Part shown: piece by piece, positions 1,931 to 38,868 of the stretch
Numbering within the stretch: position 1 is the first letter of the stretch
Layout of the letters: every line of letters starts with the position of its first letter
NCBI RefSeq assembly: GCF_000284415.1
Contig: NC_017059.1
Location: forward strand, 1,819,520-1,862,426
Reading direction: 5' to 3'
DNA: 42,907 bases
Source: Pararhodospirillum photometricum DSM 122
GTDB taxonomy: Bacteria > Pseudomonadota > Alphaproteobacteria > Rhodospirillales > Rhodospirillaceae
Made by a program: the position numbers and the translations under genes
The notes under the pieces: model-generated
Seen by the model: only the letters and a program-made list of their open reading frames with translations
Database searches by the model: none
What the model was told of the DNA's origin: nothing

Positions 1931-1972
1931 ACAAGGAAAGGCTGGGGAGGCAGGGCCTCCCCAAGCCCCTCC
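1931..1972 (+). repeat. Palindromic intergenic element, copy 1 (forward)
   Basis: Perfect 8-bp stem GGGGAGGC (1944-1951) / GCCTCCCC (1955-1962), loop AGG, with the left flank AAGGCT and right flank AAGCCCCTCC shared by the other copies. It sits between two codirectional genes: the 3' end of the iminopeptidase gene and the start of recQ. Confidence 0.85.
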
Positions 1973-1983
1973 GATCCTTGGGG

Positions 1984-3006
1984 TCAGGCGTGCTGGTCGG
2001 CGAAAGCTCGCGTGGCCTGGACCAGGGCAGCCCGCACCCCCGGCTCCAAGGCCGAATGGCCGGCATCGGGGACCATCACCAAGCGGCTGCCCGGCCAGGC
2101 GCGATGCAGGTCCCACGCCGACACAGGCGGGCAGACCACGTCGTAGCGGCCCTGGACGATGGTGCACGGCAGTCCCTTCACCCGATCGATGTCCTCCAGC
2201 AACTGGCCTTCGCGCAGAAAGCCCGCGTGGCGCATGTAGTGGCATTCGAGGCGAGCGAGCGCAAGGGCGGCACGGCCATCGCCCTCGTCACAAGGCCGCG
2301 GCCGCAAGCGGGCGCAGGCATCCTCGTAGCCGCTCCACACCCGGGCGGCCGGCAGGTGGACCAACGGATCAGGATCGGTCAGGCGGCGATAGTAGGCGCT
2401 CAGGGGATCATGGCGTTCGTCTTCGGGCAAAAAGCCAAAAAAGACATGGGCCGCCTCGGGAAAGAAGCGGCCCATACCGTTCAAGAACCAGTCCACCTCA
2501 AACGCCCGGAACAAAAACACCCCGCGCAGGATAAAGCCGAGACAACGCTCAGGATGCGCCTCGCCATAGGCCAACGCCAAGGTGCTCCCCCACGATCCGC
2601 CAAAGATCATCCAGCGTTCGACATCCAGGTAGTCCCGCAACAGCTCCATGTCGGCCACGAGGTCGGCCGTGGTGTTATCGGCAAGCTCGGCAAAAGGACG
2701 CGAGCGCCCGGCCCCGCGTTGATCCAGCAAAATGACCCGGTAACGCTGGGGATCAAAATAGCGGCGGCAAAAAGGGGCTGTCCCCGCCCCGGGTCCCCCA
2801 TGCACAAACAACACCGGGATGCCGTCCGGGGCGCCGCTTTCTTCCCAATGCAGGACATGAGCGCCCCCCACCCGCAACCGCCCGGTGCGACGGGCCTCAA
2901 TGGCGGGATACAGATCGGCCAGGGCATCCGGGATCACTGGGGAGTCGCCGGAATCGCCGTGCCGCTCAATGGAATGCTGTCTGTCGCCGCCTCTTGCCTC
3001 AGCCAT
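1984..3006 (-). CDS. pip: Proline iminopeptidase (peptidase S33)
   Basis: Alpha/beta-hydrolase that removes N-terminal proline from peptides. Within 340 residues there is the oxyanion-hole motif HGGPGAG (about 69-75), the DQRGAGRS block typical of proline iminopeptidases, the nucleophile motif GGSWGS (Ser about 138), and the C-terminal catalytic His in DAGHSALEP. The RVWSGYEDAC-like stretch in the cap region is also typical of the family. The start is taken at ATG 3006, which has a purine-rich GGGGGA just upstream; an ATG at 3072 is in frame but lacks a ribosome site and the added residues are low-complexity. It is followed on the same strand by recQ across a palindromic element, so co-transcription is possible but not shown. 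Confidence 0.92.
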   Translation of the reverse strand: MAEARGGDRQHSIERHGDSGDSPVIPDALADLYPAIEARRTGRLRVGGAHVLHWEESGAPDGIPVLFVHGGPGAGTAPFCRRYFDPQRYRVILLDQRGAGRSRPFAELADNTTADLVADMELLRDYLDVERWMIFGGSWGSTLALAYGEAHPERCLGFILRGVFLFRAFEVDWFLNGMGRFFPEAAHVFFGFLPEDERHDPLSAYYRRLTDPDPLVHLPAARVWSGYEDACARLRPRPCDEGDGRAALALARLECHYMRHAGFLREGQLLEDIDRVKGLPCTIVQGRYDVVCPPVSAWDLHRAWPGSRLVMVPDAGHSALEPGVRAALVQATRAFADQHA

Positions 3007-3412
3007 GGAGTCCCCCGTGGTGGTCGTGCCAGATCCCGGAACCGGGGACACGGAATCGCTTCGTGACATCATGAGACCATTGGGCCTGACAATCCAGCCC
3101 CCGCCCCTAGGGAAACCGCGTCATCCGCGCCTCGGGGCACGCGCTGCCGCGAAACCCAAGTCGCGCGAAATAAGGGAGGTCGCGTCGCACAATCGCCTTC
3201 GAAGATTACAGGTCAGTGTTCCGCTTTTTATCAGTTAAAAACTTTGCCCCCTCTCCGCTTGCACTTTCCTTCTCTTGGTCCCAAATACCCAAGCAGAACA
3301 CTCTTGCCCACGAAAGAAGCAGGTTGTGCCGAGGATGATGATGATTTAGTCTGGTTTATAGGAAAAAAAGGGCGACCTTAACGGGGATAATGCCCTTGGA
3401 ACGGGGGGTTCC
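3007..3412. other. 406-base divergent intergenic region
   Basis: Lies between the divergently oriented iminopeptidase and MCP-like genes. It is AT-richer than its surroundings at 3220-3400, as expected for promoters facing both ways. I see no RNA gene, repeat copy or convincing -35/-10 pair. A GATAAT hexamer at 3386-3391 has no -35 partner. Confidence 0.5.
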
Positions 3413-36425: not shown

Positions 36426-38816
36426 ATGCTGTCTCGCAATCTTGAACAGACACTCCACCGGGCCCTCGCCCTTGCTTCGCAGCGTCGGCACGAATACGCC
36501 ACACTGGAGCATCTGTTGCTGGCTCTGGTCGATGATCAGGAGGCTACCACCGTCCTCAAGGCGTGCTCGGTCGATACCGAGCGCCTGCGCGGTCAGTTGG
36601 AGGACTTCCTCAACAACGAACTGACCGGCCTGATTAGTCCCTCCATTGAGGGCGACCCCAAGCCAACGGCAGGCTTCCAGCGTGTCGTCCAGCGCGCCGC
36701 CATCCATGTTCAATCCTCGGGGCGCGATCAGGTGACGGGGGCGAACATCCTGGTGGCGCTGTTCAGCGAACGCGAAAGTCACGCGGTTTATTATCTTCAG
36801 ATGCAAGATATGACCCGTCTCGACGCGGTCAACTTCATCAGCCATGGCATCGCCAAGGCGCCGGGCCAGGGGCAACCCCGGATTCCGCGCGGCGCCGACG
36901 ACGAAATCAAAGTCGAGGCCGCCGCCAAAAAGGGCGCCGAAGCCCTCTCCAGCTACTGCGTCAACCTCAATGACAAGGCCCGCGAAGGCCGCATCGACCC
37001 GTTGATCGGGCGCGACGCCGAGGTCGAGCGCACCATCCAGATCCTGTGCCGGCGCAACAAGAACAACCCCCTGTTGGTCGGTGATCCCGGCGTGGGCAAG
37101 ACGGCCATCGTCGAGGGCTTGGCCCGGCGCATCGTGCACAAGGAAGTGCCCGAGGTCTTGTTCGATGCCGTGATCTTCTCCCTCGACATGGGCTCCTTGC
37201 TGGCCGGGACCCGCTATCGCGGCGACTTCGAGGAGCGCTTGAAGGCCGTCATCGGCGAGTTGGAAGCCACCCCCGGTGCCGTCTTGTTCATCGACGAGAT
37301 CCACACGGTGATCGGGGCCGGTGCCACCTCGGGCGGATCCATGGACGCCTCCAACCTGCTCAAGCCGGTTCTGGCCCAGGGCACCTTGCGTTGCGTGGGC
37401 TCCACCACCTACAAGGAGTTCCGCTCGCACTTCGAGAAGGACCGCGCCCTGGTCCGCCGCTTCCAGAAGATCGACGTCTACGAGCCCAGCGTCGAGGATG
37501 CGGTGCGCATCCTGCGCGGCATCAAGTCCTACTACGAAGATCACCACAAGGTTCGCTACACCGCCGGCGCGGTGCGGGCGGCGGTTGAACTGGCGGCCAA
37601 GCATATCCACGACCGCAAGTTGCCCGATAAGGCCATTGATGTGATCGACGAAGTGGGCGCGGCCCGCATGCTCCTGCCCGAAAACCGTCGGCGCAAGACC
37701 GTGACGGTGCGTGACATTGAGGAGGTTGTGGCCAAGATCGCCCGCATCCCCGCCAAGTCGGTGTCGCGCGACGATCAGATGGTCCTGAAGTCGCTGGAGC
37801 GCGACCTGAAAACCCTGGTCTTCGGCCAGGACAAGGCCATTGAGGCCCTGGCCACCGCCATCAAGTTGGCCCGCGCCGGCTTGCGTGAGCCCGACAAGCC
37901 GATTGGCAACTACCTGTTCAGCGGTCCCACCGGCGTTGGCAAGACCGAGGTTGCGCGCCAGTTGGCCAAGATCTTGGGCATCGATCTGATCCGCTTCGAC
38001 ATGAGCGAGTACATGGAGCGTCACTCCATCTCCCGTCTCATTGGCGCGCCCCCGGGCTATGTGGGCTTCGATCAAGGCGGCCTGCTCACCGATGCCGTGG
38101 ACCAGCAGCCCCATTGCGTGTTGCTGCTCGACGAGATCGAGAAGGCCCACCCGGACCTGTTCAACATTTTGTTGCAGGTCATGGATCACGGCAAGCTGAC
38201 CGACCACAACGGCAAGACCATCGACTTCCGTAACGTCATCTTGATCATGACCACCAACGCCGGCGCCCAGGCCTTGGCCCGCAATGTCATGGGCTTTGCC
38301 CGCGACGTGCGCGAGGGTGACGATCTGGAGGAAATCGAGCGTTCGTTCTCGCCCGAGTTCCGCAACCGCCTGGATGCCGTCATCCCCTTCTCCAGCCTCT
38401 CGACCGAGGTGGTCGGCCGGGTGGTGGACAAGTTCGTCATGGAGTTGGAGGCCTTGCTGGCCGATCGCAACGTGACCATCGAGCTCACCGACAAGGCTCG
38501 CCAGTGGTTGGCCGAAAAGGGCTACGATCGTCGCATGGGCGCCCGTCCCCTGGCCCGTCTGATCCAAGAAACCCTGAAGAAGCCTCTGGCCGAGGAGCTT
38601 CTGTTCGGCCGTCTGGTCAAGGGCGGCCGGGTCAAGGTGGGCATCGAGGAGGGCAAGCCTCAGTTCGCCTTCTTCGATCTGCCTGCCCATGACCTGCCGC
38701 CCAGCGAGGATGAGGAGGCCGCAGACGAGGTGTTGGAGGATCTAGAGGACGCCGACAGCGATGACGCCAAGCCGGAAGCGCCGTCTGACGATCCGGGGAC
38801 ACGGACTCTGCCCTAG
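36426..38816 (+). CDS. clpA: ATP-dependent Clp protease ATP-binding subunit ClpA
   Basis: AAA+ unfoldase that feeds substrates to ClpP. The 796-residue product has the N domain that docks ClpS (MLSRNLEQTLHRALALASQR), NBD1 with GDPGVGKT and VLFIDEIHTVIGAGA, and NBD2 with GPTGVGKT and DMSEYMERHSISRLIG. Where E. coli ClpA has the ClpP-docking IGL tripeptide, this protein reads NVMGFARDV, i.e. MGF. The extreme C-terminus is a ~45-residue acidic tail. The start ATG 36426 has AAAGGAG seven bases upstream. The M domain of ClpB is absent, which separates it from clpB at 10805. Confidence 0.96.
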   Translation: MLSRNLEQTLHRALALASQRRHEYATLEHLLLALVDDQEATTVLKACSVDTERLRGQLEDFLNNELTGLISPSIEGDPKPTAGFQRVVQRAAIHVQSSGRDQVTGANILVALFSERESHAVYYLQMQDMTRLDAVNFISHGIAKAPGQGQPRIPRGADDEIKVEAAAKKGAEALSSYCVNLNDKAREGRIDPLIGRDAEVERTIQILCRRNKNNPLLVGDPGVGKTAIVEGLARRIVHKEVPEVLFDAVIFSLDMGSLLAGTRYRGDFEERLKAVIGELEATPGAVLFIDEIHTVIGAGATSGGSMDASNLLKPVLAQGTLRCVGSTTYKEFRSHFEKDRALVRRFQKIDVYEPSVEDAVRILRGIKSYYEDHHKVRYTAGAVRAAVELAAKHIHDRKLPDKAIDVIDEVGAARMLLPENRRRKTVTVRDIEEVVAKIARIPAKSVSRDDQMVLKSLERDLKTLVFGQDKAIEALATAIKLARAGLREPDKPIGNYLFSGPTGVGKTEVARQLAKILGIDLIRFDMSEYMERHSISRLIGAPPGYVGFDQGGLLTDAVDQQPHCVLLLDEIEKAHPDLFNILLQVMDHGKLTDHNGKTIDFRNVILIMTTNAGAQALARNVMGFARDVREGDDLEEIERSFSPEFRNRLDAVIPFSSLSTEVVGRVVDKFVMELEALLADRNVTIELTDKARQWLAEKGYDRRMGARPLARLIQETLKKPLAEELLFGRLVKGGRVKVGIEEGKPQFAFFDLPAHDLPPSEDEEAADEVLEDLEDADSDDAKPEAPSDDPGTRTLP

Positions 38817-38820
38817 AACA

Positions 38821-38868
38821 GGAAAAGAGGTGTGGTGGGGAGGCGCGCCCTCCCCACCACACCCCTCG
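38821..38868 (+). repeat. Palindromic intergenic element, copy 12 (forward, long stem)
   Basis: TGTGGTGGGGAGG (38831-38843) pairs perfectly with CCTCCCCACCACA (38849-38861), giving a 13-bp stem, then CCCCTCG. It lies five bases past the clpA stop codon and ahead of the hybrid kinase gene. Confidence 0.88.

Follow-up and report, generated by a model that had tools for sequence, protein, structure and literature searches.

Among described bacterial repeats, two kinds come closest to a family of palindromes that recurs along a 42,907-nt stretch of the chromosome of Pararhodospirillum photometricum DSM 122 (this whole stretch is called the window). The TMECO/PIT motifs of Escherichia coli and its relatives resemble the family in being intergenic G/C-rich hairpins with a mirror-image third strand and a 3-nt second loop, in occurring in both orientations and in inverted pairs, and in jumping in copy number between close relatives (PMC4666352; this and the other papers are cited from excerpts). 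TMECO itself has the order pyrimidine-purine-purine (Y-R-R, class II) and 9-nt stems, is present in 23 copies in strain MG1655, is commoner upstream of open reading frames, and folds as a triplex in vitro, with no support for a stable triplex in vivo (PMC4666352, which cites the earlier work by Hoyne and Maher). The repetitive extragenic palindromes (REPs) and bacterial interspersed mosaic elements (BIMEs) found with REP-associated (RAYT) transposases are likewise short extragenic palindromes in hundreds of copies, with an asymmetric, conserved foot, inverted pairs and a lineage-specific distribution (PMC2817692, PMC3733652).

The P. photometricum family differs from both. In contrast to TMECO, it has the order purine-purine-pyrimidine (R-R-Y) on its G-rich strand, a mirror of 6-7 nt, an estimated ~900 copies, and a position behind stop codons. 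The TMECO pattern given in the excerpt of PMC4666352, CCCTCNCCC-N3-6-GGGNGAGGG-N3-GGGNGAGGG, was not matched when the family consensus was read against it; order and stem both differ. Unlike REPs and BIMEs, the family has a mirror third strand and no PF01797 (RAYT/IS200 transposase domain) in its host, and it lacks a GTAG or CGTC tag, as read from the consensus of 60 and of 199 copies with no separate tag search.

The host belongs to a genus with three named species and has one chromosome of 3.88 Mb with 64.7% GC (PMC6292899). As R. photometricum DSM 122 it is one of the genomes listed as exceeding 500 potential intrastrand triplexes composed of nearly only G and C (Holder 2015, PMC4666352), so the raw abundance of such motifs is partly in print already. 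The excerpt of that paper names the species once and describes no element from it, and the excerpts of PMC3733652, PMC12306157 and PMC4060949 do not name it. Among the open-access papers listed, we found no description of a family with this sequence or of its covariation. The original prediction, made from the letters of the window, was of a dispersed, REP/BIME-like and undescribed family, and this description held; it had missed the mirror third strand, its covariation with the stem, and the prior listing of the host as triplex-rich. Triplex repeats as a kind are already known from TMECO/PIT.

Each element consists of an A-rich side ending in AAGGCT, a hairpin GGGGAGGC-N2-3-GCCTCCCC, a 3-nt linker (mostly AGA) and the flank CCCCTC, with GGTTCCT or a similar sequence often 3' of it. 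The exact core TGGGGAGGC-N0-8-GCCTCCCCA occurs 602 times in the host chromosome (a single contig of 3,876,289 bases) and the reversed control pattern not at all, an excess over chance that bears out the prediction genome-wide. In P. oryzae the same core was counted 6 times, and none of 29 other relatives has it more than 4 times. This is a large, real and lineage-specific repeat family.

The flank as a putative third strand

Read 5' to 3', the flank CCCCTC mirrors the stem arm CTCCCC, mostly at a distance of 3 nt, and this layout is that of an intrastrand DNA triplex. Antiparallel pairing alone yields no mirror relation. In the major groove, CCCCTC can run parallel to GGGGAG (C+·G-C and T·A-T), and on the complementary strand GAGGGG lies antiparallel to GGGGAG (G·G-C and A·A-T). 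As judged from the sequences compared here, the flank is laid out as a putative third strand of an intrastrand triplex, and it covaries with the stem across genera. By definition only, the layout corresponds to a potential intrastrand triplex in the sense of ITxF, which asks for three stems of 6-15 nt and for loops of 1-6 nt, except that copies with a 3-nt hairpin loop have a first loop of 7 nt when 6 triads alone are counted, just outside that definition. H-DNA mirror repeats share the mirror symmetry of purine-pyrimidine tracts; unlike them, the family uses three separate segments of one strand and not one long mirror tract. DNA folding of one copy was unexceptional (z -1.25) in a program without a triplex model.

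Within the host we analyzed a sample of 842,907 bases (40 spaced stretches plus the window; about 22% of the genome, 64.6% GC). Among perfect-stem copies oriented by the A-rich side only, 125 of 162 had exact CCCCTC at linker 3 and 11 had CCCCAC, so the flanks are conserved beyond the stem, as predicted. In each of the eight genomes that had hits, mirror matches were most frequent at linker 3, and a cruder test in the host gave 157 such matches at offset 3 (n = 404). Single changes of the third-strand T in perfect-core copies genome-wide (n = 52) were to A in 39, to G in 13 and to C in none. The T beside the stem had changed to C in 18 sample copies, to G in 3 and to A in 1. C did stand at the third-strand T in 13 sample copies, never as a single change and mostly in a shifted strand such as ACCCCT. 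A change of T to A places T over A-T on the G-rich strand, which is permitted in purine-motif triplexes. Because the T changes mostly to A and never to C, the purine motif is favored, and this motif needs no acid.

Relatives carry different stems, and the flank could be compared with each. We took every perfect hairpin whose stem had 8 or more pairs and, close to its foot, a run of 6 purines, and scored either flank, 3 nt from the run, for mirror matches. The stems include GGGGGA (genomes G012 and G018), GGAGGG and GAGGGG (G014), GAGGGG and GAGGGA (G018), and GGGGAG (G001, which is P. oryzae NBRC 107573, G008, G014 and G049). Stem and third strand pair as GGGGGA/CCCCCT, GGAGGG/CCTCCC, GAGGGG/CTCCCC (CACCCC in G014) and GGGGAG/CCCCTC. 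Pooled over the non-host genomes, 65 of 127 unique hairpins had mirrors of at least 5/6, against 36.1 ± 3.2 when flanks were permuted within genomes (maximum 49 in 5000 trials). Without G038, a member of the host's family, the count was 45/84 (27.4 ± 2.6, maximum 37), and without G038, G001 and G008 it was 35/59 (20.7 ± 2.2, maximum 28). For single genomes, the permuted mean and the number of 2000 trials that reached the observed count were: G014, 8/22 (1.8; 0 trials); G018, 16/18 (10.9; 1 trial); G038, 20/43 (8.6; 0 trials); G012, 10/16 (7.1; 65 trials); G001, 9/22 (6.3; 36 trials); host, 72/102 (65.7; 3 trials). G008 (3 hairpins) and G049 (1 hairpin) were uninformative singly. In 243 kb from 14 loci of genomes without matches to a covariance model of the host element, there were two hairpins and no mirror hit.

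A stricter test used only hairpins that have a C-rich flank, defined by four or more C among 6 positions, with the side set by C count alone and only unique stem/flank pairs counted; it skipped 31 non-host hairpins that had no C-rich flank on one side. In the non-host genomes 27 of 47 pairs reached at least 5/6, compared to 11.7 ± 2.5 when flanks were permuted across genomes and 16.5 ± 2.3 within genomes, and the observed count was reached in 0 of 20000 trials either way. Minus G038 the result was 20/30, against 8.8 ± 2.2 across genomes (0/20000) and 13.4 ± 2.0 within genomes (20/20000). G014 and G018 together gave 8/10 against 4.0 within genomes (reached 149 times), and G038 gave 7/17 against 3.1 (reached 29 times). 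Among 22 cases in six genomes, G038 not being one of them, 11 had a T exactly opposite the single A of the stem, against a mean of 4.5 in permutations, of which 4 in 20000 came as high. Covariation of third strand and stem was present in the pooled relatives and, by the stricter test, absent within the host. That the side arm tends to change in step with the hairpin in relatives suggests that the three-stranded fold may be what evolution preserves. In G038, many hairpins have CCCCCG or CCCCCT at linker 3, some of them behind a second hairpin (L160-L166), and the T tracks the stem partly.

The mirror flank could instead be due to chance, arising from C-rich composition and the copying of one ancestral element per lineage. 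G and C predominate in all stems and third strands, the copies in any one genome are related by descent, and the host has no covariation beyond chance. In spite of this, permuted C-rich flanks never reached the observed count in 20000 trials, a composition-matched CTCCCC third strand is absent, and both G014 and G018 have more than one kind of stem, each kind with a mirror of its own, though neither genome is significant singly. We consider a coincidence of this kind very unlikely.

Copies in the window, the host genome and relatives

In the window, the exact arm pair GGGGAGGC-N0-12-GCCTCCCC occurs 7 times, against a mean of 0.01 in 100 dinucleotide shuffles. There are 16 hairpins at up to two mismatches, from which 13 family members were chosen by eye on their flanks; the hairpins at 3434, 7373 and 26397 lack the flanks and were dropped, and the one at 7373 may be a decayed copy. 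The members start, as hairpins, at 1944, 4541, 13545, 14500, 19270, 19321, 21140, 21865, 22596, 28076, 32568, 35801 and 38837. Seven have no stem mismatch, four have one, and two (21865 and 28076, both damaged) have two, so the 12 clear copies and one decayed copy first counted were recovered as 13 members, 11 of them with at most one mismatch. At linker 3 the mirror is 6/6 in 7 copies, 5/6 in 2, 4/6 in 1 and 3/6 in 3; of the last three, 19321 reaches 5/6 at linker 2, 38837 reaches 6/6 at linker 6, and 28076 is decayed. The copies are listed below, with + denoting a third strand on the right of the hairpin.

1930..1978, +, copy 1: A-rich side, hairpin 1944-1962, 3-nt linker, CCCCTC; mirror 6/6 at linker 3
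4527..4576, +, copy 2: hairpin 4541-4560; 6/6 at linker 3
13531..13579, +, copy 3: hairpin 13545-13563; 6/6 at linker 3
14484..14531, -, copy 4: hairpin 14500-14517; 6/6 at linker 3
19256..19304, +, copy 5: hairpin 19270-19288; left half of an inverted pair between divergent genes; 6/6 at linker 3
19305..19353, -, copy 6: hairpin 19321-19339; right half of the same pair as copy 5; 5/6 at linker 2, 3/6 at linker 3
21126..21174, +, copy 7: hairpin 21140-21158; A-tract overlaps a predicted stop codon (end 21131); 6/6 at linker 3
21849..21897, -, copy 8: hairpin 21865-21883; arm damaged (GGAAAGG), CCCCTC intact; between divergent genes; 4/6 against the damaged arm
22582..22629, +, copy 9: hairpin 22596-22613; A-tract after a predicted stop codon (end 22583); 5/6 at linker 3
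28062..28110, +, copy 10: hairpin 28076-28094; decayed stem (GGGCCGG); 3/6 at linker 3
32554..32601, +, copy 11: hairpin 32568-32585; 6/6 at linker 3
35785..35832, -, copy 12: hairpin 35801-35818; 5/6 at linker 3
38823..38871, +, copy 13: hairpin 38837-38855; stem lengthened, third strand displaced; 6/6 at linker 6, 3/6 at linker 3

The pair at 19.27/19.32 kb and the copy at 21.9 kb lie between divergent genes by crude gene calls, as had been noted from the sequence. For the pair there is the caveat that the gene on the right is called from 19311, within the second member; that start is probably misplaced. An Rfam scan of the window gave nothing above the gathering score except tRNAs. A truncated third tRNA-Lys-like copy (14085-14139, 31 bits) lies near two intact, identical tRNA-Lys genes (14168-14343).

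The host sample contained 199 oriented copies at up to one stem mismatch, 98 and 101 on the two strands, which scales to ~915 and gives an estimated total of ~900 in the genome. Copies in both orientations are thus present in the sample as in the window, and the spacing of one every ~3 kb that was first reported fits the window; the sample averages one per 4.2 kb. The 199 were drawn from 311 hairpins at up to two mismatches, and the 112 left out had no clear third strand (82), one on both sides (3) or two mismatches (27). The 199 are therefore selected for a third strand. The consensus of the 199 reads AAAAAAGGAAGGCT ahead of the stem and AGACCCCTC-GGTTCCT behind it, with weak outer ends; its third-strand conservation is partly selected, because the copies were oriented by the third strand.

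RNAalifold gave a poor consensus on 120 copies, so the hairpin was imposed for the covariance model, which had matches (E 0.01) in 8 of 61 genomes, the host included. About 86 candidates were scored per genome, so that the values for the host (at least 87) and G038 (at least 86) are not copy numbers. The perfect hairpin-linker-mirror motif occurs 533 times (241+292) in the host and is absent from 384 other Alphaproteobacteria across the class, a sample with one other genome of the host's family and without P. oryzae, itself a carrier of the motif. A third strand of matched composition that is no mirror, CTCCCC, was found in none of the 385 genomes. The P. oryzae count is a lower bound, because this genome is a draft (~210 contigs) and contigs C3, C17 and C58 start in element-like sequence. 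Where intergenic sites could be compared between the two species (11 sites in 12 rows, two rows being one pair), the exact core GGGGAGGC-N0-6-GCCTCCCC was absent from P. oryzae throughout, degenerate copies being possible there, so the host copies at these sites were gained in its lineage or lost from the other.

Related patterns were seen further afield. A motif with 29 specified bases matched exactly in Litoreibacter, Rhodovarius, Maritimibacter, Marivita and the actinobacterium Enemella, and a shorter form occurs 1-3 times per genome. The control pattern CTCCCC-N3-CCCCTCC-loop-GGAGGGG, which belongs to the other triplex class (as TMECO does), was found in other alphaproteobacterial families (14+11 in G344, 7+8 in G078, 7+3 in G421, 1+6 in G250, fewer in six more, 0+1 in the host). 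There may be a second group of triplex repeats in those families.

Gene ends, transcription and spread

By the crude gene calls, 89 of the 199 copies lie in co-directional gaps, 48 in convergent and 18 in divergent gaps, 19 inside called genes, 17 far from genes and 8 at stretch ends. Densities per kb of intergenic DNA were 2.5 (convergent), 1.6 (co-directional) and 0.67 (divergent). At least one of the 19 copies inside gene calls is probably there because of a misplaced start; Rickettsia palindromic elements, for comparison, insert in frame within genes. Among the co-directional copies, 80 of 89 are closer to the upstream stop than to the downstream start (p=2e-15), with a median distance from stop to stem of 28 nt when the T-tract side is downstream and 18.5 nt in the opposite orientation, and the two orientations relative to the upstream gene are equally frequent (45:44). 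In relatives, the hairpin lies less than 60 nt from a stop in 6/9 cases in G012, 10/12 in G018, 6/7 in G014, 6/8 in G001 and 9/18 in G038. No replication-strand bias was seen by eye along the host chromosome, where GC skew is too weak to place origin and terminus.

Like Rho-independent terminators, the elements have a G/C hairpin followed on one strand by a T-rich tract, and they stand at gene ends. The family might be the intrinsic terminator of the species, multiplied for its usefulness and read toward the A/T-rich side as hairpin, CC and T-rich tract. In a 10-kb part of the window there were 13 terminator-like sites (7.4 ± 3.0 in shuffles), and 7 of the 13 are family elements. Copies lie directly behind stop codons, and their density is greatest between convergent genes. 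At co-directional gene ends (with gaps no shorter than 60 nt; here and at convergent ends, copies with as many as two mismatches were counted), a hairpin with a sense U-tract was found at 23 of 41 ends with a same-orientation copy only and 8 of 10 with both orientations, compared to 13 of 160 without a copy. This did not extend to ends with an opposite-orientation copy only (3/37). The corresponding numbers for convergent ends were 8/14 (same), 3/7 (both), 9/112 (none) and 2/19 (opposite). Same-orientation copies look like terminators, and this cannot account for the other half of the copies; the 45:44 orientation argues against termination as the sole role, and together with the 3/37 it rules out a plain terminator in that role. 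In addition, 18 of 199 copies lie between divergent genes, termination does not require the mirror strand, and, unlike Rho-independent terminators, half of the co-directional copies face the wrong way and the non-stem flanks are conserved. It thus seems unlikely that the family is primarily a multiplied terminator. The suggestion that the copies may terminate transcription holds at best for those in the same orientation and fails for the rest, and the accompanying view that they are not independent terminators is supported by a real dispersed family with conserved flanks.

A hairpin at the 3' end of an RNA that shields transcripts from 3'-5' exonucleases would work in either orientation, as has been proposed for REPs, with the third strand a by-product or part of an RNA triple helix. 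Placement near stop codons in both orientations fits this explanation. On the other hand, a hairpin alone explains neither the mirror strand nor the covariation, and RNA third strands form poor purine-motif triplexes. We regard a protective RNA hairpin as quite unlikely to be the basis of the family.

Among 26 close pairs, 18 are inverted one way, 6 are inverted the other way and 2 are direct; that 24 of 26 are inverted agrees with the REP/BIME-like organization first suggested, and at most 52 of the 199 copies sit in such pairs. Inverted pairs ~77 bp apart (L023:1931, L024:9509) often hold one CCCCAC member, and an inner inverted repeat is common, as if the pair had spread as a unit.

The RAYT check that the REP comparison called for came out negative in the host: no protein matched PF01797 at E 0.001, and other transposase families were not searched. 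PF01797 was absent from 14 of 15 genomes tested, G018 having four IS200-sized matches (154-155 aa). A RAYT as mobilizer is ruled out for PF01797 only.

A triplex-capable fold as the proposed selected feature

The explanation that we favor, if by a modest degree, is that the family is a dispersed, extragenic, REP-like repeat of ~48 nt in which the selected feature would be a fold able to form a triplex, either tolerated at gene ends or of use there. The purine-pyrimidine hairpin GGGGAGG/CCTCCCC would take a third strand from its own flank, CCCCTC or, on the other strand, GAGGGG. DNA that is unwound or single-stranded would adopt this fold, the likeliest form being a purine-motif triplex of the G-rich strand. 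The copying machinery could recognize the fold, as it does a hairpin and foot in REPs, and copies could persist 3' of genes because insertion does no harm there or because a structure at the end of a gene, such as the hairpin, is of use. One orientation would add a hairpin and U-tract able to terminate transcription. A larger claim, made from the same comparisons, is that evolution maintains the intrastrand triplex itself, in a superfamily whose third strand co-evolves across genera and whose three-stranded form is recognized by a non-RAYT mobilizing system, with copies now behind a large share of the host's genes; this we hold to be possible, and rather doubtful.

Several observations weigh against the favored explanation. 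The mirror is 6 nt long and 7 nt in only 34 of 136 copies, which is short for a stable triplex, and dimethyl sulfate (DMS) footprinting of the related E. coli motif gave no triplex in vivo (excerpt of PMC4666352). Direct-repeat matches to the pyrimidine arm were also found in the cruder host test (57 at offset 2, 39 at offset 3 and 43 at offset 5, of 404). The 39 A variants are not independent, several being in the recurring pair ~77 bp apart and sharing descent. The all-hairpin test mixes family members and unrelated hairpins, so its excess is partly mere membership. In the stricter test neither G014 (3/4) nor G018 (5/6) is significant singly (reached in ~8% of permutations each), and the host gave no signal (9/18 against 8.2, reached 7664 times), because its stem hardly varies. 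An earlier, cruder and strand-naive test was weaker (4/20000). Several G038 third strands are CCCCCG and do not track the A. The relatives' stretches were partly picked around matches to the host-derived model, and the permutation statistics ignore kinship, copies within a genome being related by descent, with no tree correction. In relatives, where numbers are small, the tendency to lie near stops is weak (20 of 31 co-directional copies are closer to the stop). No mobilizing enzyme was found in a search for PF01797 only, and there was no clean empty site, the P. oryzae spacers being too diverged to show target duplications.

The role of DNA triplexes in living bacteria is open, and the support for the E. 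coli motif comes from in vitro work (excerpt of PMC4666352). The family also makes one ask how a structured repeat reached hundreds of copies with no RAYT, as far as PF01797, the only family searched, can tell. Covariation of a third strand with its stem is evolutionary evidence of the kind that established RNA helices, and the family supplies natural variants with matched and mismatched third strands.

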